A stretch of 64,000 bases of DNA from Opisthocomus hoazin (lineage: Eukaryota; Chordata; Aves; Opisthocomiformes; Opisthocomidae): positions 11,728,531 to 11,792,530 of the forward strand of contig NC_134422.1 in the NCBI RefSeq assembly GCF_030867145.1, read 5' to 3'. A program made the position numbers and the translations under genes. The notes under the pieces were generated by a model that was not told the origin of the DNA, searched no databases, and saw only the letters and a program-made list of their open reading frames with translations. Below are positions 1,862-48,342 of the stretch, one piece after another (position 1 is the stretch's first letter; each line of letters begins with the position of its first letter).

Positions 1862-1919
1862 ATGAGACGCTGTGTATTCCTCGCTGTGTTGCTCAGCCTG
1901 GTGCTCAGCGTTTCCAAAG
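1862..1919 (+). CDS. MUC13: MUC13 exon 1: start codon and signal peptide
   Basis: The exon encodes a basic start (MRRC) followed by a hydrophobic core ([12 protein letters not shown]) and a small-residue region (VSKG), a typical secretory signal peptide. It ends with a consensus GTAAGA donor at 1920 in phase 1, matching the phase of all following PTS exons. The start is the first ATG of this frame after the presumed promoter. Confidence 0.85.
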
Positions 1920-4900: not shown

Positions 4901-7900
4901 GCAATTGCCAGGAGGAGAAAGGCATGAAGGGTACAAAATGCTGTTTGTTGGGAGGAGCTGAAAGCCAAGGTATGGGGGAGAAGTACTATGCAGGAAAACA
5001 TGACACCAATGCGGCATTGAGCCTGAGGAGAGCCCAAAGGCAAGGCAAGGCTGCCCTGGGCTGTGGCTGCTCAGCCCCATGCAGGCCCCCCACCTACCTG
5101 CCCAGAGGTTGTCCTGCACACACAGAATTCCCCAAGGCTTTTTCTCTGCTCAACGCTAATCAGTGCTGCCATCTCTCTTCTTTTCCCTTCCTCAGGAACC
5201 GCCTCTGACACAGTGACTGCGTCAAATTCGACAGACACATCGACTGCAGGTAAGGAGCAAAAGCCCTCGGTCATCCTCTTATGAGGAGAGGTTGGGGTCA
5301 CTCATTGTAGGGAGCTCTGCAGCCCCAATAGGCAGGGACGAGTTCCCCTGGCCAGGTTTCCCCGAGTTGCTCTCCTGGGGTAGAAGCACAGCCCCACATG
5401 AAGTCTGCATCCTCTCCGTGCCTTCTTTCTCTGACCCTCCTGGTATTTGCTGCAAGGTCAAAGTGTTGGTGATGAATTCAGCAACTCAGTCCCATTCTTC
5501 TTGGTGCTGTTGCCTCCTCAAGCTGACCCCAAGACCCTCATCTGTTTCACAAATCCTTGCCATGGAGAAACAGTGCTGCTGACTGTTCTCCCAAGACAGT
5601 GTCGCCAATGAGGCCATCATGGGGAGCATGTTCAGGGGCTGATGGGTGCCCTCGGCCTGCTCTGTCAGCCGGTCCTGGACATGCAGTGCTGCCTTGGGCA
5701 GCATGTGTGCCCATGCCTGAGCCACCAGTGGCCAGCGAGTGCAGCTGAGCTGGGGGCCATACACTGCCGTGGGGGTCACATGCTCAGGTGCTGGGCTATG
5801 GGGGACAAGTGGCCATGGACACACCAGACTACACAAGCATCATGGTCAGGGAGAGCCCGAAGGCAGAGGGCAGGGTTGGCCTGGGTTGTGGCTCCTCAGC
5901 CACACGCAGGCCCCCCACCTACCTGCCCAGAGGTTGTCCTGCACACACAGAGTTCCCCAAGGCTTCTCCTCCACTCAGTGACAATCAGTGCTGCCATCTC
6001 TCCTCTTTTCCCTTCCTCAGGAACCGCCTCTGCAACAGTGACTCCGTCAAAGTCTACTAACACATCGACTGCAGGTAAGGAGCAAAAGCCCTCGGTCATC
6101 CCCTTATGAGGAGAGGTTGGGGTCAACCATCGCAGGGAGCTCTGCAGCCCCAATAGGCAGGGACGAGTTCCCCTGGCCAGGTTTCCCCGAGTTCCTCTCC
6201 CAGGGGAGACAAAGGTTCCAGGTCAAGGCTATGAATCCTCTCCACTCTTCCCTCTGCCCTGCTGGCCTTTGCTGCAGGGGGAATGTGTTGGGGAAGATGT
6301 GAAGAGGCTGTTCTTTTCCTGCTTGGCGCCTTTGCCTCTCGCAGCTGTCCCGGGTGCAAGCAGATCGCTGCAGAGGAGGTGCCCAAAGCAAGCTGGTGCT
6401 GGGGCTGTGCAGGAACTTGTTCCTGTGACTGCTTGGAGCATGGTCAGGGAGGGAGCCGGGGCACACACCAGCATGGGGCTGAGTGCCAGGGCCGTGGTTG
6501 GGCACCATGGAGCGGTCCCTGCCTGGAATCCTCCATAGCCAGCCAGCCCCATCCCAGGTGGTGCTGGGGAGCCCCAAGGAAGTGGGTCGAAGCTCCTGCT
6601 GGGATCACCCTGAGGAGGGGAAGGCTTCTCGCCCTTTATCTCTTCCTGCATCATGGGCTTGGAGGAGCTCATCCTTCCTGGAGCACCCGACTTTCCCATC
6701 ACGCCCACCCACCCACCGTCCCGAAGGGCCAGCTGCCGCAGACTTTCACCCGAATGATTGTGGGGAGAAGGTTATTGAGAGGGAGTGAGGCATGTGCTGG
6801 CTGTATGCAGTCTGATGGCACCCCTTGACCTGCTCTGGCAGCTGGTCCTGGCCATGAGGTGCTGCCTTGGGCAGGCGGAGGAAGTGTTCCTGCAGGGAGA
6901 CACACGTGTGCCTGTGGCTGAGCTGACGGTGGCCAGCGAGTGCAGCTGAGCTGGGGGCAATACACTGCCGTGTGGGGCACGTGCTCAAGAGCCAGGGTAT
7001 GGGGGGGAAGTGGCCATGGACACACCAGACTATACAGGCGTCACGGCCAGGGAGAGCTGAAAGGCAGAGGGCACGGCTGCTCTGGGCTGTGGCTGCTCAG
7101 CGCCACGCAGGCCCCCCACCTACCTGCCCAGATGTTGTCCTGCACACACAGAGTTCCCCAAGGCTTCTCCTCCACTCACTGACAATCAGTGCTGCCATCT
7201 CTCCTCTTTGCCCTTCCTCAGGAACCGCCTCTGCAACAGTGACTCCGTCAAAGTCTACTAACACATCGACTGCAGGTAAGGAGCAAAAGCCCTCAGTCAC
7301 CCCCTTATGAGGAGAGGTTGGGGTCAACCATCGCAGGGAGCTCTGCAGCCCCAGTAGGCAGGGACGAGTTCCCCTGGCCAGGTTTCACAGAGTCACTGAA
7401 TCACCGAATCACAGAATGGTAGGGATTGGAAGGGACCTCTGTCGGTCATCTAGTCCAACCCCCCTGCCCAAGCAGTGTCACCTACAGCAGGCTGCACAGG
7501 ACCTTGTCCAGGCGGGTCTTGAATATCTCCAGAGAAGCAGAATCCACAGCCTCCCTGGGCAGCCTATTCCAGGGCTCCGTCACCCTCAGAGGGAAGAAGT
7601 TCTTCCTCATGCTCAGATGGAACTTCCTATGCTTCAGTTTGTGCCCGTTGCCCCTTGTCCTGTCACTGCACACCACTGAAAAGAGTCTGGCCCCATCCTC
7701 CTGACACCCACCCTGCAGATATTTAGAGGCATTTCTAAGGTCCCCTCTCAGCCTTCTCTTCTTCCGGCTGAACAAGGCCAGCTCCCTCAGCCTTTCCGCA
7801 TAGGAGAGATGCTCCAGACCAGTCACCATCTTTGTAGCCCTCCGCTGGACTCTCTCCAGTAGTTCCTCATCTTTCTTGAACTGGGGAGCCCGGAGCTGGA

Positions 7901-10900
7901 TGCAGTACTCCAGACGGGGCCTCACTAGGGCAGAGTAGAAGGAGAGGGGGAACCTCCCTCGACGTGCTGGTCATGGTCTTCTTAGTGCACCCCAGGATAC
8001 CATCGGCCTGTTTGGGTGCCAGGGCACACTGCTGACTCATGGTTAACCTGTCATCCACCAGGACACTCATATCAGTCTCTGCAGAGCTGCTCTCCAGCAG
8101 GTCTGCCCCAAGCCTGTACTGGTGCGTTGGGTTGTTCCTCCCCAGATGCAGGACCCTGCACTTGCCTTTGTTGAACCTCATCAGGTTCCTCTCTGCCCAA
8201 CTCTCCAGCCTGTCCAGGTCTTGCTGAATGGCAGCACAGCCTTCAGGTGTATCAGCCACTCCTCCCAGTTTGGTGTCATCAGCTCTTCCTGCATCATGGG
8301 CTTGGAGGAGCTCATCCTTCCTGGAGCACCCGACTTTCCCATCACGCCCACCCACCCACCGTCCCGAAGGGCCAGCTGCCGCAGACTTTCACCCGAATGA
8401 TTGTGGGGAGAAGGTTATTGAGAGGGAGTGAGGCATGTGCTGGCTGTATGCAGTCTGATGGCACCCCTTGACCTGCTCTGGCAGCTGGTCCTGGCCATGA
8501 GGTGCTGCCTTGGGCAGGCGGAGGAAGTGTTCCTGCAGGGAGACACACGTGTGCCTGTGGCTGAGCTGACGGTGGCCAGCGAGTGCAGCTGAGCTGGGGG
8601 CAATACACTGCCGTGTGGGGCACGTGCTCAAGAGCCAGGGTATGGGGGGGAAGTGGCCATGGACACACCAGACTATACAGGCGTCACGGCCAGGGAGAGC
8701 TGAAAGGCAGAGGGCACGGCTGCTCTGGGCTGTGGCTGCTCAGCGCCACGCAGGCCCCCCACCTACCTGCCCAGAGGTTGTCCTGCACACACAGAGTTCC
8801 CCAAGGCTTCTCCTCCACTCAGTGACAATCAGTGCTGCCATCTCTCCTCTTTTCCCTTCCTCAGGAACCGCCTCTGCAACAGTGACTCCGTCAAAGTCTA
8901 CTAACACATCGACTGCAGGTAAGGAGCAAAAGCCCTCAGTCATCCCCTTATGAGGAGAGGTTGGGGTCAACCATCGCAGGGAGCTCTGCAGCCCCAGTAG
9001 GCAGGGACGAGTTAACCTGGCCAGGTTTCACAGAGTCACTGAATCACCGAATCACAGAATGGTAGTGATTGGAAGGGACCTCTGTCGGTCATCTAGTCCA
9101 ACCCCCCTGCCCAAGCAGTGTCACCTACAGCAGGGTGCACAGGACCTTGTCCAGGCGGGTCTTGAATATCTCCAGAGAAGCAGAATCCACAGCCTCCCTG
9201 GGCAGCCTGTTCCAGGGCTCCGTCACCCTCAGAGGGAAGAAGTTCTTCCTCATGCTCAGATGGAACTTCCTATGCTTCAATTTGTGCCCGTTGCCCCTTG
9301 TCCTGTCACTGCACACCACTGAAAAGAGTCTGGCCCCATCCTCCTGACACCCACCCTGCAGATATTTAGAGGCATTTCTAAGGTCCCCTCTCAGCCTTCT
9401 CTTCTTCCGGCTGAACAAGGCCAACTCCCTCAGCCTTTCCGCATAGGAGAGATGCTCCAGACCAGTCACCATCTTTGTAGCCCTCCGCTGGACTCTCTCC
9501 AGTAGTTCCTCATCTTTCTTGAACTGGGGAGCCCGGAGCTGGATGCAGTACTCCAGACGGGGCCTCACTAGGGCAGAGTAGAAGGAGAGGGGGAACCTCC
9601 CTCGACGTGCTGGTCATGGTCTTCTTAGTGCACCCCAGGATACCATCGGCCTGTTTGGGTGCCAGGGCACACTGCTGACTCATGGTTAACCTGTCATCCA
9701 CCAGGACACTCATATCAGTCTCTGCAGAGCTGCTCTCCAGCAGGTCTGCCCCAAGCCTGTACTGGTGCGTTGGGTTGTTCCTCCCCAGATGCAGGACCCT
9801 GCACTTGCCTTTGTTGAACCTCATCAGGTTCCTCTCTGCCCAACTCTCCAGCCTGTCCAGGTCTTGCTGAATGGCAGCACAGCCTTCAGGTGTATCAGCC
9901 ACTCCTCCCAGTTTGGTGTCATCAGCTCTTCCTGCATCATGGGCTTGGAGGAGCTCATCCTTCCTGGAGCACCCGACTTTCCCATCACGCCCACCCACCC
10001 ACCGTCCCGAAGGGCCAGCTGCCGCAGACTTTCACCCGAATGATTGTGGGGAGAAGGTTATTGAGAGGGAGTGAGGCATGTGCTGGCTGTATGCAGTCTG
10101 ATGGCACCCCTTGACCTGCTCTGGCAGCTGGTCCTGGCCATGAGGTGCTGCCTTGGGCAGGCGGAGGAAGTGTTCCTGCAGGGAGACACACGTGTGCCTG
10201 TGGCTGAGCTGACGGTGGCCAGCGAGTGCAGCTGAGCTGGGGGCAATACACTGCCGTGTGGGGCACGTGCTCAAGAGCCAGGGTATGGGGGGGAAGTGGC
10301 CATGGACACACCAGACTATACAGGCGTCACGGCCAGGGAGAGCTGAAAGGCAGAGGGCACGGCTGCTCTGGGCTGTGGCTGCTCAGCGCCACGCAGGCCC
10401 CCCACCTACCTGCCCAGAGGTTGTCCTGCACACACAGAGTTCCCCAAGGCTTCTCCTCCACTCACTGACAATCAGTGCTGCCATCTCTCCTCTTTTCCCT
10501 TCCTCAGGAACTGCCTCTGCAACAGTGACTCCGTCAAAGTCTACTAACACATCGACTGCAGGTAAGGAGCAAAAGCCCTCAGTCATCCCCTTATGAGGAG
10601 AGGTTGGGGTCAACCATCGCAGGGAGCTCTGCAGCCCCAATAGGCAGGGACGAGTTCCCCTGGCCAGGTTTCACAGAGTCACTGAACCACCGAATCACAG
10701 AATGGTAGGGATTGGAAGGGACCTCTGTCGGTCATCTAGTCCAACCCCCCTGCCCAAGCAGTGTCACCTACAGCAGGGTGCACAGGACCTTGTCCAGGCG
10801 GGTCTTGAATATCTCCAGAGAAGCAGAATCCACAGCCTCCCTGGGCAGCCTGTTCCAGGGCTCCGTCACCCTCAGAGGGAAGAAGTTCTTCCTCATGCTC

Positions 10901-13900
10901 AGATGGAACTTCCTATGCTTCAGTTTGTGCCCGTTGCCCCTTGTCCTGTCACTGCACACCACTGAAAAGAGTCTGGCCCCATCCTCCTGACACCCACCCT
11001 GCAGATATTTAGAGGCATTTCTAAGGTCCCCTCTCAGCCTTCTCTTCTTCCGGCTGAACAAGGCCAGCTCCCTCAGCCTTTCCGCATAGGAGAGATGCTC
11101 CAGACCAGTCACCGTCTTTGTAGCCCTCCGCTGGACTCTCTCCAGTAGTTCCTCATCTTTCTTGAACTGGGGAGCCTGGAGCTGGATGCAGTACTCCAGA
11201 CGGGGCCTCACTAGGGCAGAGTAGAGGGAGAGGGGGAACCTCCCTCGACGTGCTGGTCGTGGTCTTCTTAGTGCACCCCAGGATACCATCGGCCTGTTTG
11301 GGTGCCAGGGCACACTGCTGACTCATGGTTAACCTGTCATCCACCAGGACACTCATATCAGTCTCTGCAGAGCTGCTCTCCAGCAGGTCTGCCCCAAGCC
11401 TGTACTGGTGCGTTGGGTTGTTCCTCCCCAGATGCAGGACCCTGCACTTGCCTTTGTTGAACCTCATCAGGTTCCTCTCTGCCCAACTCTCCAGCCTGTC
11501 CAGGTCTTGCTGAATGGCAGCACAGCCTTCAGGTGTATCAGCCACTCCTCCCAGTTTGGTGTCATCAGCTCTTCCTGCATCATGGGCTTGGAGGAGCTCA
11601 TCCTTCCTGGAGCACCCGACTTTCCCATCACGCCCACCCACCCACCGTCCCGAAGGGCCAGCTGCCGCAGACTTTCACCCGAATGATTGTGGGGAGAAGG
11701 TTATTGAGAGGGAGTGAGGCATGTGCTGGCTGTATGCAGTCTGATGGCACCCCTTGACCTGCTCTGGCAGCTGGTCCTGGCCATGAGGTGCTGCCTTGGG
11801 CAGGCGGAGGAAGTGTTCCTGCAGGGAGACACACGTGTGCCTGTGGCTGAGCTGACGGTGGCCAGCGAGTGCAGCTGAGCTGGGGGCAATACACTGCCGT
11901 GTGGGGCACGTGCTCAAGAGCCAGGGTATGGGGGGGAAGTGGCCATGGACACACCAGACTATACAGGCGTCACGGCCAGGGAGAGCTGAAAGGCAGAGGG
12001 CACGGCTGCTCTGGGCTGTGGCTGCTCAGCGCCACGCAGGCCCCCCACCTACCTGCCCAGATGTTGTCCTGCACACACAGAGTTCCCCAAGGCTTCTCCT
12101 CCACTCACTGACAATCAGTGCTGCCATCTCTCCTCTTTTCCCTTCCTCAGGAACTGCCTCTGCAACAGTGACTCCGTCAAAGTCTACTAACACATCGACT
12201 GCAGGTAAGGAGCAAAAGCCCTCAGTCATCCCCTTATGAGGAGAGGTTGGGGTCAACCATCGCAGGGAGCTCTGCAGCCCCAATAGGCAGGGACGAGTTC
12301 CCCTGGCCAGGTTTCACAGAGTCACTGAATCACCGAATCACAGAATGGTAGGGATTGGAAGGGACCTCTGTCGGTCATCTAGTCCAACCCCCCTGCCCAA
12401 GCAGTGTCACCTACAGCAGGGTGCACAGGACCTTGTCCAGGCGGGTCTTGAATATCTCCAGAGAAGCAGAATCCACAGCCTCCCTGGGCAGCCTGTTCCA
12501 GGGCTCCGTCACCCTCAGAGGGAAGAAGTTCTTCCTCATGCTCAGATGGAACTTCCTATGCTTCAGTTTGTGCCCGTTGCCCCTTGTCCTGTCACTGCAC
12601 ACCACTGAAAAGAGTCTGGCCCCATCCTCCTGACACCCACCCTGCAGATATTTAGAGGCATTTCTAAGGTCCCCTCTCAGCCTTCTCTTCTTCCGGCTGA
12701 ACAAGGCCAGCTCCCTCAGCCTTTCCGCATAGGAGAGATGCTCCAGACCAGTCACCGTCTTTGTAGCCCTCCGCTGGACTCTCTCCAGTAGTTCCTCATC
12801 TTTCTTGAACTGGGGAGCCCGGAGCTGGATGCAGTACTCCAGACGGGGCCTCACTAGGGCAGAGTAGAGGGAGAGGGGGAACCTCCCTCGACGTGCTGGT
12901 CGTGGTCTTCTTAGTGCACCCCAGGATACCATCGGCCTGTTTGGGTGCCAGGGCACACTGCTGACTCATGGTTAACCTGTCATCCACCAGGACACTCATA
13001 TCAGTCTCTGCAGAGCTGCTCTCCAGCAGGTCTGCCCCAAGCCTGTACTGGTGCGTTGGGTTGTTCCTCCCCAGATGCAGGACCCTGCACTTGCCTTTGT
13101 TGAACCTCATCAGGTTCCTCTCTGCCCAACTCTCCAGCCTGTCCAGGTCTTGCTGAATGGCAGCACAGCCTTCAGGTGTATCAGCCACTCCTCCCAGTTT
13201 GGTGTCATCAGCTCTTCCTGCATCATGGGCTTGGAGGAGCTCATCCTTCCTGGAGCACCCGACTTTCCCATCACGCCCACCCACCCACCGTCCCGAAGGG
13301 CCAGCTGCCGCAGACTTTCACCCGAATGATTGTGGGGAGAAGGTTATTGAGAGGGAGTGAGGCATGTGCTGGCTGTATGCAGTCTGATGGCACCCCTTGA
13401 CCTGCTCTGGCAGCTGGTCCTGGCCATGAGGTGCTGCCTTGGGCAGGCGGAGGAAGTGTTCCTGCAGGGAGACACACGTGTGCCTGTGGCTGAGCTGACG
13501 GTGGCCAGCGAGTGCAGCTGAGCTGGGGGCAATACACTGCCGTGTGGGGCACGTGCTCAAGAGCCAGGGTATGGGGGGGAAGTGGCCATGGACACACCAG
13601 ACTATACAGGCGTCACGGCCAGGGAGAGCTGAAAGGCAGAGGGCACGGCTGCTCTGGGCTGTGGCTGCTCAGCGCCACGCAGGCCCCCCACCTACCTGCC
13701 CAGAGGTTGTCCTGCACACACAGAGTTCCCCAAGGCTTCTCCTCCACTCACTGACAATCAGTGCTGCCATCTCTCCTCTTTTCCCTTCCTCAGGAACTGC
13801 CTCTGCAACAGTGACTCCGTCAAAGTCTACTAACACATCGACTGCAGGTAAGGAGCAAAAGCCCTCAGTCATCCCCTTATGAGGAGAGGTTGGGGTCAAC

Positions 13901-16900
13901 CATCGCAGGGAGCTCTGCAGCCCCAATAGGCAGGGACGAGTTCCCCTGGCCAGGTTTCACAGAGTCACTGAATCACCGAATCACAGAATGGTAGGGATTG
14001 GAAGGGACCTCTGTCGGTCATCTAGTCCAACCCCCCTGCCCAAGCAGTGTCACCTACAGCAGGGTGCACAGGACCTTGTCCAGGCGGGTCTTGAATATCT
14101 CCAGAGAAGCAGAATCCACAGCCTCCCTGGGCAGCCTGTTCCAGGGCTCCGTCACCCTCAGAGGGAAGAAGTTCTTCCTCATGCTCAGATGGAACTTCCT
14201 ATGCTTCAGTTTGTGCCCGTTGCCCCTTGTCCTGTCACTGCACACCACTGAAAAGAGTCTGGCCCCATCCTCCTGACACCCACCCTGCAGATATTTAGAG
14301 GCATTTCTAAGGTCCCCTCTCAGCCTTCTCTTCTTCCGGCTGAACAAGGCCAGCTCCCTCAGCCTTTCCGCATAGGAGAGATGCTCCAGACCAGTCACCG
14401 TCTTTGTAGCCCTCCGCTGGACTCTCTCCAGTAGTTCCTCATCTTTCTTGAACTGGGGAGCCCGGAGCTGGATGCAGTACTCCAGACGGGGCCTCACTAG
14501 GGCAGAGTAGAGGGAGAGGGGGAACCTCCCTTGACGTGCTGGTCGTGGTCTTCTTAGTGCACCCCAGGATACCATCGGCCTGTTTGGGTGCCAGGGCACA
14601 CTGCTGACTCATGGTTAACCTGTCATCCACCAGGACACTCATATCAGTCTCTGCAGAGCTGCTCTCCAGCAGGTCTGCCCCAAGCCTGTACTGGTGCGTT
14701 GGGTTGTTCCTCCCCAGATGCAGGACCCTGCACTTGCCTTTGTTGAACCTCATCAGGTTCCTCTCTGCCCAACTCTCCAGCCTGTCCAGGTCTTGCTGAA
14801 TGGCAGCACAGCCTTCAGGTGTATCAGCCACTCCTCCCAGTTTGGTGTCATCAGCTCTTCCTGCATCATGGGCTTGGAGGAGCTCATCCTTCCTGGAGCA
14901 CCCGACTTTCCCATCACGCCCACCCACCCACCGTCCCGAAGGGCCAGCTGCCGCAGACTTTCACCCGAATGATTGTGGGGAGAAGGTTATTGAGAGGGAG
15001 TGAGGCATGTGCTGGCTGTATGCAGTCTGATGGCACCCCTTGACCTGCTCTGGCAGCTGGTCCTGGCCATGAGGTGCTGCCTTGGGCAGGCGGAGGAAGT
15101 GTTCCTGCAGGGAGACACACGTGTGCCTGTGGCTGAGCTGACGGTGGCCAGCGAGTGCAGCTGAGCTGGGGGCAATACACTGCCGTGTGGGGCACGTGCT
15201 CAAGAGCCAGGGTATGGGGGGGAAGTGGCCATGGACACACCAGACTATACAGGCGTCACGGCCAGGGAGAGCTGAAAGGCAGAGGGCACGGCTGCTCTGG
15301 GCTGTGGCTGCTCAGCGCCACGCAGGCCCCCCACCTACCTGCCCAGAGGTTGTCCTGCACACACAGAGTTCCCCAAGGCTTCTCCTCCACTCACTGACAA
15401 TCAGTGCTGCCATCTCTCCTCTTTTCCCTTCCTCAGGAACTGCCTCTGCAACAGTGACTCCGTCAAAGTCTACTAACACATCGACTGCAGGTAAGGAGCA
15501 AAAGCCCTCAGTCATCCCCTTATGAGGAGAGGTTGGGGTCAACCATCGCAGGGAGCTCTGCAGCCCCAATAGGCAGGGACGAGTTCCCCTGGCCAGGTTT
15601 CACAGAGTCACTGAATCACCGAATCACAGAATGGTAGGGATTGGAAGGGACCTCTGTCGGTCATCTAGTCCAACCCCCCTGCCCAAGCAGTGTCACCTAC
15701 AGCAGGGTGCACAGGACCTTGTCCAGGCGGGTCTTGAATATCTCCAGAGAAGCAGAATCCACAGCCTCCCTGGGCAGCCTGTTCCAGGGCTCCGTCACCC
15801 TCAGAGGGAAGAAGTTCTTCCTCATGCTCAGATGGAACTTCCTATGCTTCAGTTTGTGCCCGTTGCCCCTTGTCCTGTCACTGCACACCACTGAAAAGAG
15901 TCTGGCCCCATCCTCCTGACACCCACCCTGCAGATATTTAGAGGCATTTCTAAGGTCCCCTCTCAGCCTTCTCTTCTTCCGGCTGAACAAGGCCAGCTCC
16001 CTCAGCCTTTCCGCATAGGAGAGATGCTCCAGACCAGTCACCGTCTTTGTAGCCCTCCGCTGGACTCTCTCCACTAGTTCCTCATCTTTCTTGAACTGGG
16101 GAGCCCGGAGCTGGATGCAGTACTCCAGACGGGGCCTCACTAGGGCAGAGTAGAGGGAGAGGGGGAACCTCCCTCGACGTGCTGGTCGTGGTCTTCTTAG
16201 TGCACCCCAGGATACCATCGGCCTGTTTGGGTGCCAGGGCACACTGCTGACTCATGGTTAACCTGTCATCCACCAGGACACTCATATCAGTCTCTGCAGA
16301 GCTGCTCTCCAGCAGGTCTGCCCCAAGCCTGTACTGGTGCGTTGGGTTGTTCCTCCCCAGATGCAGGACCCTGCACTTGCCTTTGTTGAACCTCATCAGG
16401 TTCCTCTCTGCCCAACTCTCCAGCCTGTCCAGGTCTTGCTGAATGGCAGCACAGCCTTCAGGTGTATCAGCCACTCCTCCCAGTTTGGTGTCATCAGCTC
16501 TTCCTGCATCATGGGCTTGGAGGAGCTCATCCTTCCTGGAGCACCCGACTTTCCCATCACGCCCACCCACCCACCGTCCCGAAGGGCCAGCTGCCGCAGA
16601 CTTTCACCCGAATGATTGTGGGGAGAAGGTTATTGAGAGGGAGTGAGGCATGTGCTGGCTGTATGCAGTCTGATGGCACCCCTTGACCTGCTCTGGCAGC
16701 TGGTCCTGGCCATGAGGTGCTGCCTTGGGCAGGCGGAGGAAGTGTTCCTGCAGGGAGACACACGTGTGCCTGTGGCTGAGCTGACGGTGGCCAGCGAGTG
16801 CAGCTGAGCTGGGGGCAATACACTGCCGTGTGGGGCACGTGCTCAAGAGCCAGGGTATGGGGGGGAAGTGGCCATGGACACACCAGACTATACAGGCGTC

Positions 16901-19900
16901 ACGGCCAGGGAGAGCTGAAAGGCAGAGGGCACGGCTGCTCTGGGCTGTGGCTGCTCAGCGCCACGCAGGCCCCCCACCTACCTGCCCAGAGGTTGTCCTG
17001 CACACACAGAGTTCCCCAAGGCTTCTTCTCCACTCAGTGACAATCAGTGCTGCCATCTCTCCTCTTTTCCCTTCCTCAGGAACTGCCTCTGCAACAGTGA
17101 CTCCGTCAAAGTCTACTAACACATCGACTGCAGGTAAGGAGCAAAAGCCCTCAGTCATCCCCTTATGAGGAGAGGTTGGGGTCAACCATCGCAGGGAGCT
17201 CTGCAGCCCCAGTAGGCAGGGACGAGTTCCCCTGGCCAGGTTTCACAGAGTCACTGAATCACCGAATCACAGAATGGTAGGGATTGGAAGGGACCTCTGT
17301 CGGTCATCTAGTCCAACCCCCCTGCCCAAGCAGTGTCACCTACAGCAGGGTGCACAGGACCTTGTCCAGGCGGGTCTTGAATATCTCCAGAGAAGCAGAA
17401 TCCACAGCCTCCCTGGGCAGCCTGTTCCAGGGCTCCGTCACCCTCAGAGGGAAGAAGTTCTTCCTCATGCTCAGATGGAACTTCCTATGCTTCAGTTTGT
17501 GCCCGTTGCCCCTTGTCCTGTCACTGCACACCACTGAAAAGAGTCTGGCCCCATCCTCCTGACACCCACCCTGCAGATATTTAGAGGCATTTCTAAGGTC
17601 CCCTCTCAGCCTTCTCTTCTTCCGGCTGAACAAGGCCAGCTCCCTCAGCCTTTCCGCATAGGAGAGATGCTCCAGACCAGTCACCGTCTTTGTAGCCCTC
17701 CGCTGGACTCTCTCCACTAGTTCCTCATCTTTCTTGAACTGGGGAGCCCGGAGCTGGATGCAGTACTCCAGACGGGGCCTCACTAGGGCAGAGTAGAGGG
17801 AGAGGGGGAACCTCCCTCGACGTGCTGGTCATGGTCTTCTTAGTGCACCCCAGGATACCATCGGCCTGTTTGGGTGCCAGGGCACACTGCTGACTCATGG
17901 TTAACCTGTCATCCACCAGGACACTCATATCAGTCTCTGCAGAGCTGCTCTCCAGCAGGTCTGCCCCAAGCCTGTACTGGTGCGTTGGGTTGTTCCTCCC
18001 CAGATGCAGGACCCTGCACTTGCCTTTGTTGAACCTCATCAGGTTCCTCTCTGCCCAACTCTCCAGCCTGTCCAGGTCTTGCTGAATGGCAGCACAGCCT
18101 TCAGGTGTATCAGCCACTCCTCCCAGTTTGGTGTCATCAGCTCTTCCTGCATCATGGGCTTGGAGGAGCTCATCCTTCCTGGAGCACCCGACTTTCCCAT
18201 CACGCCCACCCACCCACCGTCCCGAAGGGCCAGCTGCCGCAGACTTTCACCCGAATGATTGTGGGGAGAAGGTTATTGAGAGGGAGTGAGGCATGTGCTG
18301 GCTGTATGCAGTCTGATGGCACCCCTTGACCTGCTCTGGCAGCTGGTCCTGGCCATGAGGTGCTGCCTTGGGCAGGCGGAGGAAGTGTTCCTGCAGGGAG
18401 ACACACGTGTGCCTGTGGCTGAGCTGACGGTGGCCAGCGAGTGCGGCTGAGCTGGGGGCAATACACTGCCGTGTGGGGCACGTGCTCAAGAGCCAGGGTA
18501 TGGGGGGGAAGTGGCCATGGACACACCAGACTATACAGGCGTCACGGCCAGGGAGAGCTGAAAGGCAGAGGGCACGGCTGCTCTGGGCTGTGGCTGCTCA
18601 GCGCCACGCAGGCCCCCCACCTACCTGCCCAGAGGTTGTCCTGCACACACAGAGTTCCCCAAGGCTTCTCCTCCACTCACTGACAATCAGTGCTGCCATC
18701 TCTCCTCTTTGCCCTTCCTCAGGAACCGCCTCTGCAACAGTGACTCCATCAAAGTCTACTAACACATCGACTGCAGGTAAGGAGCAAAAGCCCTCAGTCA
18801 CCCCCTTATGAGGAGAGGTTGGGGTCAACCATCGCAGGGAGCTCTGCAGCCCCAGTAGGCAGGGACGAGTTCTCCTGGCCAGGTTTCACAGAGTCACTGA
18901 ATCACCGAATCACAGAATGGTAGTGATTGGAAGGGACCTCTGTCGGTCATCTAGTCCAACCCCCCTGCCCAAGCAGTGTCACCTACAGCAGGGTGCACAG
19001 GACCTTGTCCAGGCGGGTCTTGAATATCTCCAGAGAAGCAGAATCCACAGCCTCCCTGGGCAGCCTATTCCAGGGCTCCGTCACCCTCAGAGGGAAGAAG
19101 TTCTTCCTCATGCTCAGATGGAACTTCCTATGCTTCAGTTTGTGCCCGTTGCCCCTTGTCCTGTCACTGCACACCACTGAAAAGAGTCTGGCCCCATCCT
19201 CCTGACACCCACCCTGCAGATATTTAGAGGCATTTCTAAGGTCCCCTCTCAGCCTTCTCTTCTTCCGGCTGAACAAGGCCAGCTCCCTCAGCCTTTCTGC
19301 ATAGGAGAGATGCTCCAGACCAGTCACCGTCTTTGTAGCCCTCCGCTGGACTCTCTCCAGTAGTTCCTCATCTTTCTTGAACTGGGGAGCCCGGAGCTGG
19401 ATGCAGTACTCCAGACGGGGCCTCACTAGGGCAGAGTAGAAGGAGAGGGGGAACCTCCCTCGACGTGCTGGTCATGGTCTTCTTAGTGCACCCCAGGATA
19501 CCATTGGCCTGTTTGGGTGCCAGGGCACACTGCTGACTCATGGTTAACCTGTCATCCACCAGGACACTCATATCAGTCTCTGCAGAGCTGCTCTCCAGCA
19601 GGTCTGCCCCAAGCCTGTACTGGTGCGTTGGGTTGTTCCTCCCCAGATGCCGGACCCTGCACTTGCCTTTGTTGAACCTCATCAGGTTCCTCTCTGCCCA
19701 ACTCTCCAGCCTGTCCAGGTCTTGCTGAATGGCAGCACAGCCTTCAGGTGTATCAGCCACTCCTCCCAGTTTGGTGTCATCAGCTCTTCCTGCATCATGG
19801 GCTTGGAGGAGCTCATCCTTCCTGGAGCACCCGACTTTCCCATCACGCCCACCCACCCACCGTCCCGAAGGGCCAGCTGCCGCAGACTTTCACCCGAATG

Positions 19901-22900
19901 ATTGTGGGGAGAAGGTTATTGAGAGGGAGTGAGGCATGTGCTGGCTGTATGCAGTCTGATGGCACCCCTTGACCTGCTCTGGCAGCTGGTCCTGGCCATG
20001 AGGTGCTGCCTTGGGCAGGCGGAGGAAGTGTTCCTGCAGGGAGACACACGTGTGCCTGTGGCTGAGCTGACGGTGGCCAGCGAGTGCAGCTGAGCTGGGG
20101 GCAATACACTGCCGTGTGGGGCACGTGCTCAAGAGCCAGGGTATGGGGGGGAAGTGGCCATGGACACACCAGACTATACAGGCGTCACGGCCAGGGAGAG
20201 CTGAAAGGCAGAGGGCACGGCTGCTCTGGGCTGTGGCTGCTCAGCGCCACGCAGGCCCCCCACCTACCTGCCCAGAGGTTGTCCTGCACACACAGAGTTC
20301 CCCAAGGGTTTTTCTCTGCTCAACGCTAATCAGTGCTGCCATCTCTCTTCTTTTCCCTTCCTCAGGAACCGCCTCTGACACAGTGACCGTATCCAGTTGG
20401 ACAGACACGTCGACTGCAGGTAAGGAGCAAAAGCCCTCAGTCATCCCCTTATGAGGATAAGTTGGGTTCTCTCATTGTAGGGAGCTCTGCAGCCCCAATA
20501 GGCAGGGACGAGTTCCCCTGGCCAGGTTTCCCCGAGTTGCTCTCCTGGGGTAGAAGCACAGCCCCACATGAAGTCTGCATCCCCTGTCGTGCCTTCTTTC
20601 TCTGACCCTCCTGGTCTTTGCTGCAAGGGCAAAGTGTTTGTGATGAATTCAGCAACTCAGTCCCATTCTTCTTGGTGCTGTTGCCTCCTCAATCTGACCC
20701 CAAGACCCTCATCTGTTTCACACATCCTTGCCATGGAGGAACAGTGCTGCTGACTGTTCTCCCAAGACAGTGTCACCAATCAGACCATCATGGGGAGCAT
20801 GTTCAGGGGCTGATGGCTGCCTCAGCCTTCTCTGTCAGCCGGTCCGAACTGCGGTGCTGCCTTAGGCAGGAGGAGGGAGCGTTCCTGCAGGAAGACACGT
20901 GGCTGAGCCGGCCACGGCCAGCGAGTGCAGCTGAGCTGGGGGCAATACACTGCCGTGGGGGTCACATGCTTTGCTGCTTGGTATGGGGGAGAAGTGGCCA
21001 TGGACACACCAGACTACACAAGCATCAGAGGCAGGAAGAGCCCAGAGGCAGAGGACCGGGTTGCCTGGGCTGTGGCTGCTCAGCCCCACGCAGGCCCCCC
21101 ACCTACCTGCCCAGAGGCTGTCCTGCACACACAGATTTCCCCAAGGCTTCTCCTCCACTCAGTGACAATCAGTGCTGCCATCTCTCCTCTTTTCCCTTCC
21201 TCAGGAGACAACACTAAACCAGACAGTGCCTCAAATTCGACAGCGACACCGGCTGCAGGTAAGGAGCAAAAGCCCTCAGTCATCCCCTTATGAGGAGAGG
21301 TTGGGGTCAACCATCGCAGGGAGCTCTGCAGCCCCAATAGGCAGGGACGAGTTCCCCTGGCCAGGTTTCCCCGAGTTCCTCTCCCAGGGGAGACAAAGGT
21401 GCCAGGTCAAGGCTGTGAATCCTCTCCACTCTTCCCTCTGCCCTGCTGGCCTTTGCTATATTGGGAAAGTGTTGGGTAAGATTTCACAAGCACTGTTCTT
21501 TCTGCTTGGGGTTTTGCCTTCTGATACAGAATTTGGCTTTAGTAGGAGCTCTGGAAACACAATATCTGGAGATGATTCCTCTAGCCAATGAAACTTTGTT
21601 ACGTGTTTTCCTTTCCATTTTTGGGGGGCTGAAACAGAGCTACTGTATTTTTCTGCATTGCACATAAAATCTCTACCTCATCTATGTGAATGTACCTATG
21701 GAGTTAAGTGATAGAAAGCAGGAAGGATGAAAATTAGAATTTGATGACTTGAAGAGAACTGTAATTGTCATCCTATATATAGTGTGTATTACTACATAAC
21801 TTTTAATTACTTATAAACTAATAAATTATGTATATATTTGAAATACATACTTCCAAATCCTTTCAGAATGTGTAATTACTTAGAGAAAGTATAACTGCTA
21901 CCATTTTAGGTGAAAAGTGTACCATATAAAAATTTAAATTTAAAATATATTTGAAGTTATTCTAATGTCCTTCTGCTCCCTAAATTTCTTTCTTCTGGTA
22001 GATTTGCTATCTCATCTTTTTATGAGTTTTCTCCTTATTGCTGTGCAAGGCACTGGCTAGAGTACAGGGCATGGTAGAAGCAGGTTTGGGAAAGGTTTTG
22101 AGGCATCATACCATGCTGCCTTCGATGGTCCCACTGTAGTCAAGGCACTAACAGGGCTGACATATTTAGACATTTTCCCTTTTCCAAGAATGAACACAAC
22201 CTCATCTTCAGCAACTACTCCAGCAAGTAAGTAGAAGGCAGCAGTCAGCGCAAATCGATGAAGTTTTACTGCTGTATGGTATAGTGGCCAGTTAATATAT
22301 TTAGTCTTATTATGGTGATAGCTGTAAACCTGCAACAAATTCCTTAGCAGCATACTCACATATCTGTTGTGGTATGTATAGAATGATGATTAACATGGTA
22401 GCCTTCATTTTATTAATGCATTTGCAGTAAAGGACCCTACCATGACACTGTCTTATAATAAGGCAAGTACATACCAGTGCAGCATTAAAGACGCACAGGC
22501 GATTGTAGTCTGCCATTTTCTAATTTAGTCACTGATTTTGGCAACCCTCAATAGACTTTTTTGTATGGTTTGGTTTTAGTTGTATTAAGCAGAGTTAGAT
22601 TGTGAGTGCTTGGCATGACAGATTGTGAATTTCAGTCTTACTCTGTGTCCTCTACTGTTATATCCTGCTGGATTTAGTAGGGAAAACAGTTACTATACAG
22701 ATAGTAAGCCAGCAAGACATAGTCATGTGGTCTTTAATTGTATCTACACTCTATAAAAGATACCTAGTAGTTTCCTTTAGTAGAAGTATACATGAAGTAT
22801 TTAATATATGAACTACTTTATACATGAACTGGCTATTGCAATTTCATATCTTACATCTTACATCGATATCTTACATCTTTGTATCAGGGGACTTCTGCAG

Positions 22901-25900
22901 CTCGAATCCTTGTGGAAGAAATTTGGTTGAATGTGTTGCTTTATATAGCACTTACACCTGCCTGTGCCCATATGGATACTACTATAGCGACAAGGATTGT
23001 CACAGCGGTGAGTTGCAGAAGGGCAATCTATATTTTTAGTTACTTCACAGATAGCTGCTCAAGCAATTTTTTCTTCTCATATCCCTTGTTCTCACATTAT
23101 AAATGAAAACAATCAGTCTTGGGAAAGTGACTGCTGAATAATGCCAGGCTTTGCAGACAGCCACTGCTACAGTCACCTAGATTGTTATCTCACAAAACAG
23201 TAACTGCCAAAGAGGTTAATGTGCTAGGAAAAGAAGGTGAGTTCTCTGTCAGGGATGCCTGAGATTTAAATGAGTGAAAAGCAGGAAAAAAATACAAATG
23301 TAAATCTGACATCAATATTTATGGCCAGGATATAAAAAGGCCCAAGCCCGTGAAGACCTCTGAACAACAGGCTTGGTTTTCCTTACTGGTAAACCCTCCT
23401 CACATTCCTGTTGAATTGTGTCTCTGAGATGCTGCTGAAGGCTAACCGTGTGAGAAAATGGGACTTACTTAAGTGCCAAGAGGCAGGATTCTCAATTTTG
23501 CTTGTGAGCCTAAAAAAGCAGGCAGATACTGAATCACTTTCTCAGATATGGTGAGCCACGTTAGCTGCTTAGTGGCTGTGACTGCGCAGATGAAGTCCTT
23601 AATATAGGCATGGTCTCACTGAATGCTGTAACCCCTCACATGGAGTCATCTGTTAGCTTCAGGCTGTGCTTACAGTTTAATGTTATTCAGTTTCATAGCC
23701 TGGCCAGTTTGATCGAGCCCAGGATCCTGCCTGCTTCCCCGGTAGCCAGAGTACGTTCCTCATTGTGGCTGAATTGATTGAACGAACATTTGTCCCCTAC
23801 TGATTCCTCCAGTATATGAAAAATAACACTGATCGATTCTACATTGTATTTCCCCATCTCTGAAGGCTGCAGAACTCTAAAGTGAAACTAGATGTACTTG
23901 AATGCCTTCTAATTAATTAATATTCTCTGTTCTTATTCCAGCGAAAATATTCCCAGGGGTCATTACACTGAGTGAATCTTACAGTAATAGTGTTCAAACT
24001 GTAAATTCTGTGGAGTACGAAGAGGTGTTCCAAAATGTAACGAAGTTTGTGAGTGACCTTTTTTTAAACCTTTTCTGTATATTTAATACTTTCCAGAATG
24101 TCAGGCAGACAGAGGGGATACATGCTGCCTTTAATGTAGAGCCTAGAATAGCTTCACTTGAGAAATCTAATTCTTTCAAAGAATGCTTCACACTGTTTTA
24201 GATGTATTCATAAAACACTTGAATTTTGCCCTCAGCTGAGTACATGAATGGCTCTTGCTGAAGTGAAGGGATGTACCTGAAATAAACAGTATCTGCATTT
24301 GTAATGCCACTTCTATTCTGGGAAGTTCTCACATAAATTGCTCTGTAAGTTTTCCAACCCATTTAGTTTCTGATCTTCACTGTTTGCTGAGGGCTCAGTA
24401 ATACTCAGTGGTATGAGTAAAAATGAGCAGTTTAAATTTTTTTGAAAGCAAGCTATGGTTTCCATACAGCAGAAACTTTTCAGAATGGTTGTCTAGCTGT
24501 GTCTAACTACCTAACTCATAAGCCTCTTCCATAAGCACACCACTATTAGTATTTTAATATTATTAGTGAAATGGATATTACACATTTTGAGCGTTCTATG
24601 ATCATAGATAAAATCTTGTAATGGATTTCCTGGAGAAATAAGATGAACAGTTTAATTTATACTGCCATGCTGAAACAAGTGGATTAGTTTATGTCACTTT
24701 CTGGAAGTAAGGAAGAAGTATGCAACTCTACCAGACAGCTGATCAAAAAATATTCACAAAATATTATTCATAATTCATCAAAAATGGTTATCAAACTCTT
24801 CTTACTATTATTTTGCTTCCTATGAATGTTTTCTCAGAAAGTAAACAAAAATTGTCCCTCCAGAATGTTAAAAAATATTTTCCTCAATTTTTTTGTCTAA
24901 TTTTTTTTCATGACATGGCTACTGAAGTGCACGATATGCAGCACTAGAATAGGTATTTAATAGCATGCAAAAGAGAAAATAGCATAGAAAACAATTTTTA
25001 TTTTATTGCAAAGGATAGTTTATCTTTCATTTTGGTTGACTTAGACATCTTACCCTTTTCTGACAGTGCCTCCTGCTTGTGTGGCTGTTGGAGGCAGCTG
25101 CCTCCACCAGTTGTTCCCTGCTTCACATGGGATGAGGGAGAGCAGTGACTTTTCTACCGACCCCATACAAACCCCAGTGCTTTCATCAGTGCCGTGCTTC
25201 TCCCCCTGTTGCACTGCCTTGACACTCACTCGAGTCTCTCCACCCCTCCCCTTCTCTCCTACATTCCCTGTTTTACAGCACCACCCCACCGCTCCACTTC
25301 TGCAATACCTTGCATGGTGGATGTGACTGATCAGCTCACTTTATTTGTGCCTGTAGTAGCATGTTCTGGATTAAAATTTTACAGCTGAAGCCTCAGTGCT
25401 TCCTGTGATTTTGGTCTATGTTTCTGCTTGCTTTTGACTCCAATTCATTTATCATTTACAGTTTGACTATGCCTTCCGCAGTTTCACAGACTACTATAAA
25501 CAGACTGTCATCGTGGAAATTCAGTAAGTGTGCCAGGTTGTCTTTTGTGCAATACGTGCTTCCCACACACCCCATTTTAATCTGTTCCCATGGAGTACTC
25601 AGTTCAAGAAAGGATGTGGGATGAGGTCAGTTCAGTATGCCTCCTGTTAGAGGAGGACATTCTTTTTGTATTTTTAAAGTTTCCAATATGTCTGTGAAGT
25701 CACAGACTGTCCTCCACCTCACCGGAGGAAGAATGCCTTCCAGCTGAACCCAACCCAGCTGGCATGCAGGTAGCATAGATACCTCTACATTGCAAACAGA
25801 CCCTTCTGAATTCATAGCGGTCATACCCTGAATTATCCTCACCACGCTTCAGGATTGGTTCTCCATGTTGTACCTGGATAACAAAACAGACTGTTGGAGC

Positions 25901-28900
25901 AAGTAAAAGTTAGATGAGGTCCTCCACACTGCAGCCGGGTTGAGGTTAGCCCAGTAAAAAACCAAGAGTTGCATGCCAACAGCACACAAAGGACTTATGG
26001 AGTTAGTGGTGAATCCAACAGCCTTTGCTTACCAGCTACCTATTTACATCTGGATCTATTGGAAAGACGGCCATTAATGGATTCCTAAGCAAGACTTGAA
26101 CTCATTTTCAGGTGTCATAGCAGCTGTCTACATTGTGGGGTGAAAGAAGCTAGGGTAGAGAGGGAGGTTTGGCAGAAATCTGCTGGTTTTGCATCTAGCT
26201 TGCTATTCATATGGATTATACAAGACTTTAAAATGATGCTTTCTGTACTTTTCAGACTTCAAAGTGAAAGCAGAGCTTCTCATCCAATAAGCATAATAGT
26301 GATAAACCTGTTTACAAACGACTCACCTATAAGCAATGACACAGTTATTTCTGCAATAGATAACGCAACAAATGAATCAACCTATGTCTCTCAGTATGAA
26401 GGTATGTATTTCCTTACTGTGAATGTAAATAACCAGTACAAACAGAGGTTCCTATCTTCAAAGCTAGTTAGAACATTTCTGTGTGTAGTAAAGCCCATCA
26501 GAGCACAACTTGTTGATTTTAAACAGCTGAATGTTCAGTCTTTGGTAATTTTGAAGACTCCGCCATTCAGTGTTGGACTCTTTTGTGTTTTTAAGGCTTT
26601 CTACTTCCTGCGTAAAGGAGAGAAGGAAAATCCTTTTACCTAAGTAAGCAATGGCATATTGATTTTAACCTGTGAGGGTTAAGTGGCTGGAAAAATCCGG
26701 ACGAAATATGTACAGACATAGATTTTTCTTCTGAGAATAAGCCAGTATTTTACTGGCAAAATAGGATTATAGTTATTACCATAAATAACCATGGTAATTG
26801 ACATGAGGCCTCACTGATTAGCTACTGAGCGAAGTCACTCATTGGTCTAAACCAGTAAAGCCTCACGTTACTCATGTGTAATGCTTGAAGAATGATTTTG
26901 CAAATAAAATATGGATTCTTTTTTTATCTTTTTTTTTCATGTGCTCCTATTTTGAAATCAGCTTTCGCAAAAGGCTTAGCTAGTTAAAGAAGTCCATTGG
27001 CATATAGCCTAAGTTTGGTCTCTGAAGGTGACTGTATCCACCTCAACCATGACATTTCCTGTGTGCTAGTCCTAAACATGAGAGGGAAATAGAAAATACC
27101 TGGGACCTCACTAAGCACCCCTACAATCACATCCCTCTACTGCATGCTACCCACCGAGGTGTGTAAACCGTTCCCACCACTTGGGACATGGTTCTAAAGA
27201 GCACCATGCTGGACAAAGAGCATACTAATATTGCTCATGAAATGAGCTGCATGCCCGTAAACATTTATATCTATGTAGGACTGTATGGGATCTGGGCTTC
27301 ACAGTTCAGTTGTAGAAAAAACTAAGGGAATAGTGCTGGTGTTTTTCTGTATGTTTTTCTAAAGTCAGTCACAAAGTCAGTGTTCAGAGTATGAACTTTT
27401 GGGTAGAATTTCCCTCTTCATGGACTGGGCGGCAGGAAGATTTTGAGGCAGTGAGAGGCTGAGAAACAGAAGGTCAGAAAATGTGATGGAAGCAGGACCT
27501 TAACTGGTAAAGAGCAAGGGAAAAAAAAAAGGGCTGGTTCAAATGCCTGCAGTATTATGTCCCCAAAAAGGGACTTCCAAGGGTTTTTTTCAGAATTACT
27601 AAATAGTTGGTTTATGATTTACTGGGCAAGTGCACTGCTTTCTGTGAAATTATAAGCACTCGGGTTTGCTTTCTGACTGTTTCTCTTTTGAAGCTACCAC
27701 CTATTGTGCTGTTTTTAAATGTGATGCTGAAACCACTGTATGTGAAGAAGATGTGTTTCCAAAATGCATATGCAAAAGCAATTACTCAATGACAGAATGG
27801 GATGTTCATTCTTGTTCAGGTAAGAACCTTCCTACTTTATCTGTCCCCAAAAGGCTGACCTGGTTGCTCCCTCTCTCAGTCCCTTTTTGAAAATGGCACT
27901 CTGCAAATGTGCTGATCTCTGAAAATCAGGGAATGTTTGTCTTATTAAGAAAGCCATGGAAACATGTTCTCATGTTTCAGTTTGAACACATCCATAATTC
28001 TATTCCAGTAGAATAAACTACTAAAGCCTGACAAAATTATCACTGAAAGCAGTAAGTGGGTCACTCCTTAAATGCATTGTTAAATTCTTGGTGAGAACTG
28101 AAACCTAAATAGGTAAAGGATGGAACAAGTTGAATCTTGCCTTCACAGCCTTCTCTGCTGGGACTTATTTTGGGAATAAATTCTGCATGCTACCTGGAGG
28201 CAGCTGTGGGCACGCTGACAGAGCTGGAAGTCTCCTGATGCACTGCAACGATCTGTTAAAGCTCTGTCCCTTGTTGGTCATTCTAGGGTTGCATTACCTG
28301 TGTTTAGACAGGTTTTTATGGGAAGAACGGTTTATGTGATTTTTAGGAATTGTTAATTGTTGTGGTTTTATTTGCTTGCTGGTTTTGAATCTCTTAATGA
28401 GTACCCTGATCAAATATTTAGCTATCCTCCACAGCCCTGAGATGTAGCTTATTTTCTTCTTATGAAAACAAAAATTTTCACACTACAGAAAAAAGTCTAA
28501 GACATGAGGTTTTAAGAAAAACCACAAATACTGCAAACACTCTTGATAAAATCGTGAAAGCTGGCTATAAGAAAGACCAGAGAAATGTGATCCAGTGTAG
28601 CCCTTTGTGGCCCCTAATTTCTCTAAATCTGATCCATTTTTGTATCAGTTGCAATACAAATCATCTGCTGTGAGATCAAACTGCAGGTCATTGCTTGCCT
28701 ATGTAAGATGCAGCCTAGCCAGATTTCCATTCTGCTGGGGCTGGACAGTTTGAACAAAGGCCGTTTACTTCTAATTTTGTACTTTCGTATTTCAGTTTCT
28801 GTTCTACATAGGTCTAGCTCTAGAAAATCCATTCTGGTACTTTGAAGCACAACAAAATTCTCTGTGTTTATAGTGCAAGAAAAAAAATGGGAGAGAGGGG

Positions 28901-31900
28901 GGAATTTTCTCCAATGTTGATTTTTGGGGCTATCTTCAATTCACTCTGTATCTTTTCTCTCTGAAAATATAGATTGCAATAACTGTTCTGCAGAAGAAAA
29001 CAAGTACTGTGCAAAAGAAAATGGGATTCCAACGTGCAAATGCAAGCCTAACTTTGAACCGAAGAATGGAGCATGTGTATCGTGAGTACTCAGCTTTTTC
29101 TTGCATTCCTATGTTCTAGGCAAAGCTAGGGGAGAAGACCATCTAAAACAGGGTCACCCTCAATCTAGAAGAACAGCCTGCAGCTATGTGAATCAGAGAG
29201 CTGCCTAAGGTGGACAAATTTCCATGGTGTCACAAGTTATGGGATTTTAACTGCTCGGTGTTAGCTGTTGGTGTGCGCTCATAGTACCTCAAAGGAAAGT
29301 CAGGGAGATCCAAGCTCATCTGTGAGTCAGCAAAGAGAATAAACTACTTCGTGCTTATTTTGTGGGTTGTCCACAAAAACATAAACTATTCCTTCAAAGT
29401 AATTGAGCCATGTGAACTGGTATGCTGAAGCATGTAGTAAGCAACAGATATTAGAGGAAAACTTGCCTCAAATCCCTGGAAAGTTTCCATGATATCAGTG
29501 GGGACTCTGTTTCCTGATAACTTTCAGACCTATGTTATTTCATCTTGGTTTTCCCTCTGTGGGTATTTCTGTCAGCTCAGGGTCAGAACAGAGCAGTGTT
29601 GTTTGCTGGTGAAGCAGAGTAGGTAACTGGTTGTGCTCTGCTCCCATGGATAAGCAGAGGGACCTTACTCCCCATATCCATTAATTCAGCTCTTTTTGTA
29701 GTTATTGCTGCTACACAATGAACACTTCTTACTGTAAAGTCAATATATTATAAATACAAGAAACTAGTACGGGAAAAGCTGCCAGTACTTATAGACCTTA
29801 CTGAGGCTTTTGATAAAGGCAGTGGGTAGAAATTCCAGAGGGCTCACAGATGTATGGCTTAGTTCTTTGGAGAAATTAGGCCTTTTTAACATGTTTCAGG
29901 CAGAGAACCTGAAACTTTGAGTGCCCAGCTCACCAATCATTCTGAAAATCTCAGACTGTTTTACTCTAACAATGAAACTAAACAGTTCAATATTAAGATA
30001 GCATTAAAGAATAAACCTGTGATGAACACACCTTGCACAGAAATTGCTGATAAAATGTGGAAATGTACTATTGTTTTGTGATCATCTGCTTAACAACATT
30101 GTATTTTCTTTCCTTCCTTTTTTTTTTCCTCTCGTATAGTTGTGCAGTGGGCTACTCTGGAGAGAACTGCACGAATAGTAAGTAAAAGAATTTCTGATCT
30201 TTAATTACAGCATGGAAAAATAACCAGTAATATTTAATCTGCCTGAGATAACAAAATTAACAAGTAGTAGCCTTTAGGGGTGCCACCATCCTGTATTGGT
30301 ACCGGGAAAATGTTAGAAAAAAATGAGAGAAATTCCACTGTTGCCTGGAGGGAAAAATCCTTCTTGAATGTCATGTTCAGACAGACAGTAGCATTTCCTC
30401 TGATGACCTCTGCATTAAGCCCAGTAGTTTTTAGTCAAACATAGGTTATTTGGCAGAAAACCATTTATTCCTCATCTAAAGGCACGTAATGCTGAACTCA
30501 GCACCACTAATGGATTAGTTCCTCCTGTAATTAATCACTCCTTCTATTAAAACTTCAGCAGATTACTCACATTTGAAATATTTCTGCTTTAATATCCAAC
30601 CACTGGTTCTTGTTTGTGCTTTACCTTGCAAGCAAGCGCTGCATAGTATCTAGTATTCTACAGTGGTGAAGAGATGATGGCACCGACTGTCTTATAGCTG
30701 TAATTGTCTGGACAAGCTAACCAGACTGGCCTTCCAAAGGTTATTCTCTTTTTGAGTCAGTTTTGCAGCTGTTTGCTGCACCTTCTCCAGCTTCCACCGT
30801 CATATAGGTTAGGAGAGGACATTCTTCATGCCTTCCAGTGTTTGCACGTGTCTAAACTCAGAACATCTAATACAGTTAAAGGCAGGTTGAAAAATGAGCA
30901 GTTACGGTTATTCACTTCTCAGAACTACTTTGGCTTTATTTGAGCAAAAGGTATATCCTCATGTGGCCCTTTGGAACCTCACACTGCTGCATTCTTAAAC
31001 TTACACGTTTAACATACCTGTGTCTGTAGCTATGAGATTTTCAAGGGTTTTCTTCTAGTTTTGCCTAAAAGTTTTGGATATTGGCTAATGGTAGTTATAA
31101 TGCAGCCCAGAGAATCTTGCCATGTGTAAATGTTTGGCAGAAAGCATATTTTTCATCACATGGAACATATTTTTCTTGAGAAAATTTTTGGAATTTTAAG
31201 GCCTATTTCATAAAGCAAATGGAAATGCTAAATTGGCACAAAATCAACACATTGTGAATTTAAACATGAATTTGACCTGCTAATAATGAAATCCATTAAT
31301 AGCCTCATTTTCTCCGTATGGCACTTGGTGGGTACTTTGCTGAACAATAACCAAGGAGACTTTACACGTGTTTGGCACAACGTTCTTTTGAGAAATCATA
31401 TTCGCTGTTGTCTCACTGTATGCTCCTATGATTCAATGCGCTGGATCGTTCTGCTGGTAATGGCACAGCTGGTGTTTTCATGTTGTGTATCTCCAGTATA
31501 GGCATTCAGTGTACTAAATGGCAAACGCATAAATACAAACTGGGACCTTCAAGTAGGTAACACACGTAAGGTTGGGTAGCTCAAGACGCTGGCTTACTCT
31601 TCACACTGTTGTCTAGAAATTATGCCCTGCAGAACACAATTCTCCCCTTTTTTTTTTTCCCCTCGCCATGGCTATGCAGAGCTAAGACTAGATGTCGGTA
31701 GCAATTCCATTCACAGCTGAAGGAAGATATACAGAATCCATGTCCTTCTCCCTTAGTCATGCTGGTTCTGCAGCAAGATCAGTGAAAATAACTTTTCCTT
31801 GCCAAACATTTATTCAGATAGGGGGTATTTATGCAGTGTTTGTAGTACCACATAGCAGACTTCCCAAATCGGTGTGCCTTATTTGCCTGGGGCATGGGAA

Positions 31901-46900: not shown

Positions 46901-47170
46901 TGATGCTCTTACTGCCTCACCGGGGGTTATTTTGATTTAGCAGCACCAGGACAGTTAAAAGGTTACAACCTTTGTAGGCGGGTGTTTCCCAGGGTAACAA
47001 ATAGTCACTTCAAACCCAAACCTGGTGTCTCCCAGGGATACGGAGAGGCTGAAGAAATCAGCGAGGTTTATGAAAGAAGCGTTGGAAATCAGTGCAAGCA
47101 AGGGGAGGTCTTGGCAGGTGGCATTGCAGCTGATGACTGCTTTCAGAGACCAGCAATGCAAAGCGTAGGG
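40991..47170. other. Intergenic sequence between MUC13 and ITGB5
   Basis: I see no exon of a known family. The longest frame (minus strand, 45384-46442, 352 codons) lacks any recognisable domain and has low-complexity composition from GC-rich DNA. The AT-rich simple stretch at 43425-43520 is listed separately. Confidence 0.5.
43425..43520. repeat. AT-rich simple repeat (ATAT/TAGATATA)
   Basis: Runs of ATATAT and TAGATATA variants over about 95 bp. Confidence 0.85.
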
Positions 47171-48252: not shown

Positions 48253-48303
48253 GCCCCCGCCGCCCCCCGGGGCAGCTCCGCGGCGCCGCCCCCGCCGCCT
48301 CCT

Positions 48304-48342
<39 letters not shown>
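48304..48342. repeat. (CCG)13 microsatellite in the ITGB5 5' UTR
   Basis: Thirteen perfect CCG units about 70 bp before the start codon. The same strand class as CGG repeats known to form structured DNA or RNA and to vary in length. Confidence 0.92.

Follow-up and report, generated by a model that had tools for sequence, protein, structure and literature searches.

A tandem array of exon-intron units with a CR1 passenger in the PTS domain of a putative hoazin MUC13 gene

The window, by which we mean the whole stretch of 64,000 nucleotides analysed here (Opisthocomus hoazin, GCF_030867145.1, contig NC_134422.1, positions 11,728,531 to 11,792,530, forward strand), contains a tandem array of coding exon-intron units. 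We read it, with a probability of about 0.85, as the PTS domain of a bird MUC13 gene with one exon per repeat, in which an A-B pair was duplicated, part of one intron gave way to a CR1 element, and the resulting unit spread to eight copies. The array is real and well resolved in one assembly, and its kind, of which it is a clear example, is already known.

In the proposed mechanism, a 54-nt exon in phase 1-1 (18 residues) and the intron belonging to it would form the repeat unit. An older pair of such units, A and B, would have been duplicated, after which a 5'-truncated CR1 would have replaced 454 bp in one B-type intron. The CR1-bearing unit would then have reached eight copies via unequal crossing over accompanied by conversion among units. 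Gain or loss of one unit would lengthen or shorten the O-glycosylated stalk by 18 residues and leave the frame untouched, and CR1 would be a passenger that extends the homology common to the units.

Results

Gene identity and reading frame

A tail of HEG1 lies upstream on the + strand, a little less than 10 kb ahead of the window; it matches PDB 3u7d_B along its full 26 residues (E 4.6e-13). An integrin beta exon lies downstream on this strand, and its best PDB match is integrin beta-3 (E 3.2e-45). We take the human gene order to be HEG1, MUC13, ITGB5. Muc13 and HEG are adjacent with equal polarity in chicken, and they are adjacent in mammals too (Lang et al. 2006, PMC1552070; this and the other papers are cited from parts of their text). 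A PTS-rich N-terminal domain follows a signal peptide predicted by eye, which matches the MUC13 layout. Pfam did not recognise a SEA domain in the gene, and its best matches there (E 0.058 and 0.016) fell below the curated cut-off and are meaningless. The gene fits MUC13, a name that we gave mainly from position and layout. Its parts outside the repeats are as follows (positions are those of the window).

1862..1919, + strand: first coding exon with the signal peptide (read by eye), ending in phase 1 by translation and phase bookkeeping
22212..22226, + strand: possible 15-nt exon, a guess; phase is held with or without it
22888..23007, + strand: EGF-like exon, from a weak match to EGF chains in PDB (E 0.002; Pfam EGF, E 0.072)
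23942..26401, + strand: three exons at the place of the SEA domain in MUC13, assigned by position and frame alone
27694..30177, + strand: further cysteine-rich, EGF-like exons (translation, by eye)
32358..35126, + strand: transmembrane and cytoplasmic exons with a hydrophobic segment and the stop codon (translation, by eye)

When 24 exons were joined, namely the signal-peptide exon, 12 repeat exons, and 11 downstream exons, 591 codons were read without a stop. The possible exon at 22212 has a length divisible by three, so that leaving it out also preserves the frame. Further downstream, a CGC run in a GC-rich stretch at 48284-48342 may represent the first exon of the integrin beta gene together with its CpG island.

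One PTS repeat per exon

We located 12 exons, each 54 nt long, with starts at 5196, 6021, 7222, 8865, 10508, 12151, 13794, 15437, 17080, 18723, 20366, and 21205. Translation and phase bookkeeping placed all 12 in phase 1 at both ends, so that skipping any one of them keeps the frame. Their splice flanks are also common to 12 of 12 (cccttcctcag before, gtaaggagca after), and each exon is predicted to be spliced. Every exon encodes one repeat; the same 18 residues are encoded by nine of the 12, and Ser or Thr makes up 116 of the 216 repeat residues in the PTS domain (53.7%). The initial annotation had counted nine such exons: nine do lie in the 1643-bp register described below, but the repeat domain comprises 12, with the extra ones at 5196, 6021, and 21205. 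The exons whose units carry no CR1 are the following.

5196..5249, + strand: 54-nt PTS exon of type A1, 825 bp to the next exon
6021..6074, + strand: 54-nt PTS exon of type B1, in a unit of 1201 bp
20366..20419, + strand: 54-nt PTS exon of type A2, in a unit of 839 bp that is 89.8% like unit A1
21205..21258, + strand: 54-nt PTS exon of type B2

The exons of the eight CR1-bearing units vary at two sites only (unit positions 5 and 26), both silent. We considered whether exons are protected more than introns, which the differences in the non-array units did not support. Exon and intron differences were 7/54 and 56/766 for the pair 5196/20366 (Fisher P 0.18), 21/54 and 25/262 for the pair 6021/21205 (P 6e-7, the exon being the more diverged), and 7/54 and 5/110 for the pair 5196/6021. 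Divergence in the non-array PTS exons equals or exceeds that in their own introns, clearly exceeding it in the one pair 6021/21205, with the splice sites unchanged.

The 1643-bp array

From 7222 to 20366, the exon starts are separated by eight intervals of exactly 1643 bp. Both the exact spacing of nine exons and the eight-copy cassette array, as originally described, were confirmed by these starts and by eight complete units.

7222..20365, + strand: eight complete units, each an exon with its intron and 1643 bp long
6640..20307 (end approximate), + strand: region with homology at 1643-bp spacing (about 8.3 units)

Compared pairwise, the eight units showed 1 to 25 differences per 1643 bases (98.5 to 99.94% identity), with 34 variable sites. 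Units 4 and 5 are a single base apart, and units 1, 2, and 8 are clearly distinct from the middle ones. The last 58 bases of the unit hold 11 of the 34 variable sites; eight of these 11 are changes in the last unit alone, and the private changes of this unit sit at the transition from the array to the unit at 20366. Eight exact intervals at this level of identity exclude chance repeats. The array is gap-free, and no N occurs within the 64-kb window.

When the CR1-free stretch 8284-9030 was compared with the 1.48-Gb genome (415 contigs) in a search that skips very common words, all 12 matches were at this locus. A dispersed segmental duplication is unsupported by this result.

The CR1 fragment

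Copy-by-copy alignment revealed a CR1 piece of about 0.9 kb in each of the eight array introns.

7385..8283, - strand: antisense CR1 fragment in the first unit, a match of 899 bp; seven further units have it at the corresponding place, in steps of 1643
6186..6639, + strand: ordinary intron sequence of unit B1, 454 bp, in whose place CR1-bearing units have CR1

In the first unit, the 896 bp at 7387-8282 are absent from the CR1-less unit at 6021. An antisense 896-bp CR1 in every intervening intron, which the initial annotation had claimed, was thus borne out, with 896 bp being the part that the unit at 6021 lacks. The lengths agree, as 1201 - 454 + 896 = 1643. With its octamer-repeat 3' end at the low coordinate, the element runs antisense to the gene. 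Unit positions of about 164-1062 match CR1 copies elsewhere in the genome; among the 42 matches listed, 39 were long and 88 to 91% identical, and 3 were partial, in a whole-unit search that scored 39 of 12718 candidates and is incomplete, since the locus itself was missing among the matches listed. At the high-coordinate end, the array leaves CR1 where a CR1 copy continues in eight of eight inspected loci (at one, L002, the copy shown is the second one there). As the genomic copies go on in CR1 sequence at this point, the array CR1 is truncated at that end.

Comparison with the array unit found no CR1 in the units at 5196, 6021, 20366, and 21205, which excludes CR1 from the ancestral unit and makes it look like a late addition. 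In one alignment, the first part of the 454-bp intron stretch matches the unit at 21205 at 92% over 277 bp, so the CR1-less state looks ancestral. Elsewhere in the window, open stretches at 47137-47526 and 57859-58299 encode peptides like those of the array CR1 and are, by eye, further CR1 copies. At 34065-34140, in the last intron of the gene, another short stretch resembles, by eye, a CR1 3' end and has the octamer pattern.

History of the array

The unit at 21205 is closer to that at 6021 (92% over 277 bp) than to those at 5196 (79%) or 20366 (77%). The likeness within the pairs 5196/20366 and 6021/21205 fits an older duplication of an A-B unit.

To place the CR1 insertion, we aligned the array copies with eight genomic CR1 copies, picked as best matches, and built an unrooted tree. 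In 49 of 831 columns where at least seven of the eight genomic copies agree, all eight array copies share a base unlike these (5.9% private change), and 45 of the 49 private bases lie outside CpG. Single genomic copies, in a slightly different count, had 9 to 32 private bases each in 832 to 842. The branch between the array and the genomic copies was 0.088, and the array tip branches were at most 0.006. Insertion first and amplification later is the most likely order on these alignments, and the private changes could partly reflect an unsampled CR1 subfamily.

On the right flank, the CR1-less unit at 6021 has 1 to 4 differences in 582 bases from each of the first seven array copies (0.2-0.7%), and 12 in 582 from the eighth, because this copy runs into the next unit. 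On the left flank, it has 2 to 5 differences in 165 bases (1.2-3.0%) from all eight. Set against 5.9% private change within CR1, these values suggest that exchange continued after insertion, and the case seems clearer on the right flank than on the left. Within the array, the mean pairwise difference was 1.5% in the left flank and 0.56% in CR1, and a single clean amplification would not predict a left flank more varied than CR1.

At ten two-state sites the rarer base occurs in at least two units, and the bases are combined in a mosaic manner. The four-gamete test failed for 15 of 45 pairs of informative sites, eight of the 15 through one site, 1591; repeated mutation is a possible source of such failures.

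Discussion

The general claim of the initial annotation, a mucin domain made of exon-intron cassettes that carry a CR1 passenger, is supported. The identity of units 4 and 5 save for one base is what would be expected if there were fewer true units that the assembler had multiplied. We consider such an artefact very improbable: the ten mosaic sites and the distinctness of units 1, 2, and 8 argue against it, as does a window free of N, and assemblers collapse arrays of this kind more often than they multiply them. The chicken gene, too, has at least 12 such repeats (PMC1552070). The same mosaic variants, together with the near-identity of the right flank between the array and its CR1-less neighbour, are consistent with an old array that is kept uniform through gene conversion and has a copy number fixed in the species. 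We regard this as rather unlikely; eight equal CR1-bearing copies need amplification at some time, and conversion alone adds no units. Recent amplification and conversion are compatible rather than exclusive.

Stalk length may also be set mainly by splicing that skips some of the equivalent phase 1-1 exons. In phase and splice sites, any of the 12 exons could stand in for any other, and splicing was proposed for chicken Muc13 by Lang et al. (PMC1552070). For DMBT1, by comparison, most transcripts in one cell line corresponded to the gene copy number, and splicing was minor (PMC9038570). We judge splicing as the main determinant quite improbable. The possibility of skipping and the 2006 proposal nevertheless make it too strong to say, as the initial annotation did, that copy number changes "only" by kilobase-scale unequal exchange.

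Our preferred reading, amplification of a CR1-bearing unit within an exon-per-repeat domain, has close precedents. Chicken Muc13 has one PTS repeat per exon, with at least 12 repeats and EST support (Lang, Hansson and Samuelsson 2006, PMC1552070), and both recombination and splicing were proposed as ways to vary its length. The hoazin gene resembles it in having one PTS repeat per exon, near-identical exons, and an adjoining HEG, and differs in that the chicken repeats are of 20 residues and the assembly had a gap, whereas the hoazin array has 18-residue repeats and is gap-free. One repeat per exon, part of the design claimed at first, is not new, as chicken Muc13 already has it; the word CR1 is absent from the main text of PMC1552070.

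Coding tandem arrays of exons with their introns are known from LPA KIV-2, whose 5.6-kb unit has two exons and is present in 1 to about 40 copies in people, with copy number changing protein length (PMC11462820). The hoazin unit, in contrast, is 1.6 kb long with one exon, and is known from one assembly. DMBT1, likewise a mucosal glycoprotein with tandemly repeated exons, has alleles with 7 to 21 SRCR domains (PMC9038570); its repeats are cysteine-rich binding domains with demonstrated polymorphism, unlike the short PTS repeat of the hoazin. In poultry, MUC13 is among the chicken small-intestine mucins in a review of mucus (PMC8521165), and it appears as a reference only in the part consulted of a chicken indel paper (PMC4136736). 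Neither a CR1-bearing MUC13 array nor a variable bird MUC13 was found among the matches listed in open-licence PubMed Central, mostly titles and abstract openings.

It is possible, with the odds leaning somewhat against it, that the array is a living, copy-number-variable coding macrosatellite, in which individuals differ by 18 residues per 1643-bp unit and CR1 promotes exchange. Each unit owes 896 bp of near-identical sequence to CR1 and is, on balance, 442 bp longer than the CR1-less unit at 6021.

The finding is partly new: the one-repeat-per-exon design is known from chicken, and added here are a gap-free array and its history. The hoazin array joins two known things, exon-per-repeat Muc13 and coding exon-intron arrays, with CR1 as a tag. 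It offers a complete sequence for this kind of array, which had a gap in the 2006 chicken genome, and the transposon tag helps to order insertion, amplification, and exchange. Possible population variation of the array is the interesting point; if the unit number varies, long reads could serve to type the length of a gut mucin and to examine its relation to host-microbe interaction, as has already been done for DMBT1.
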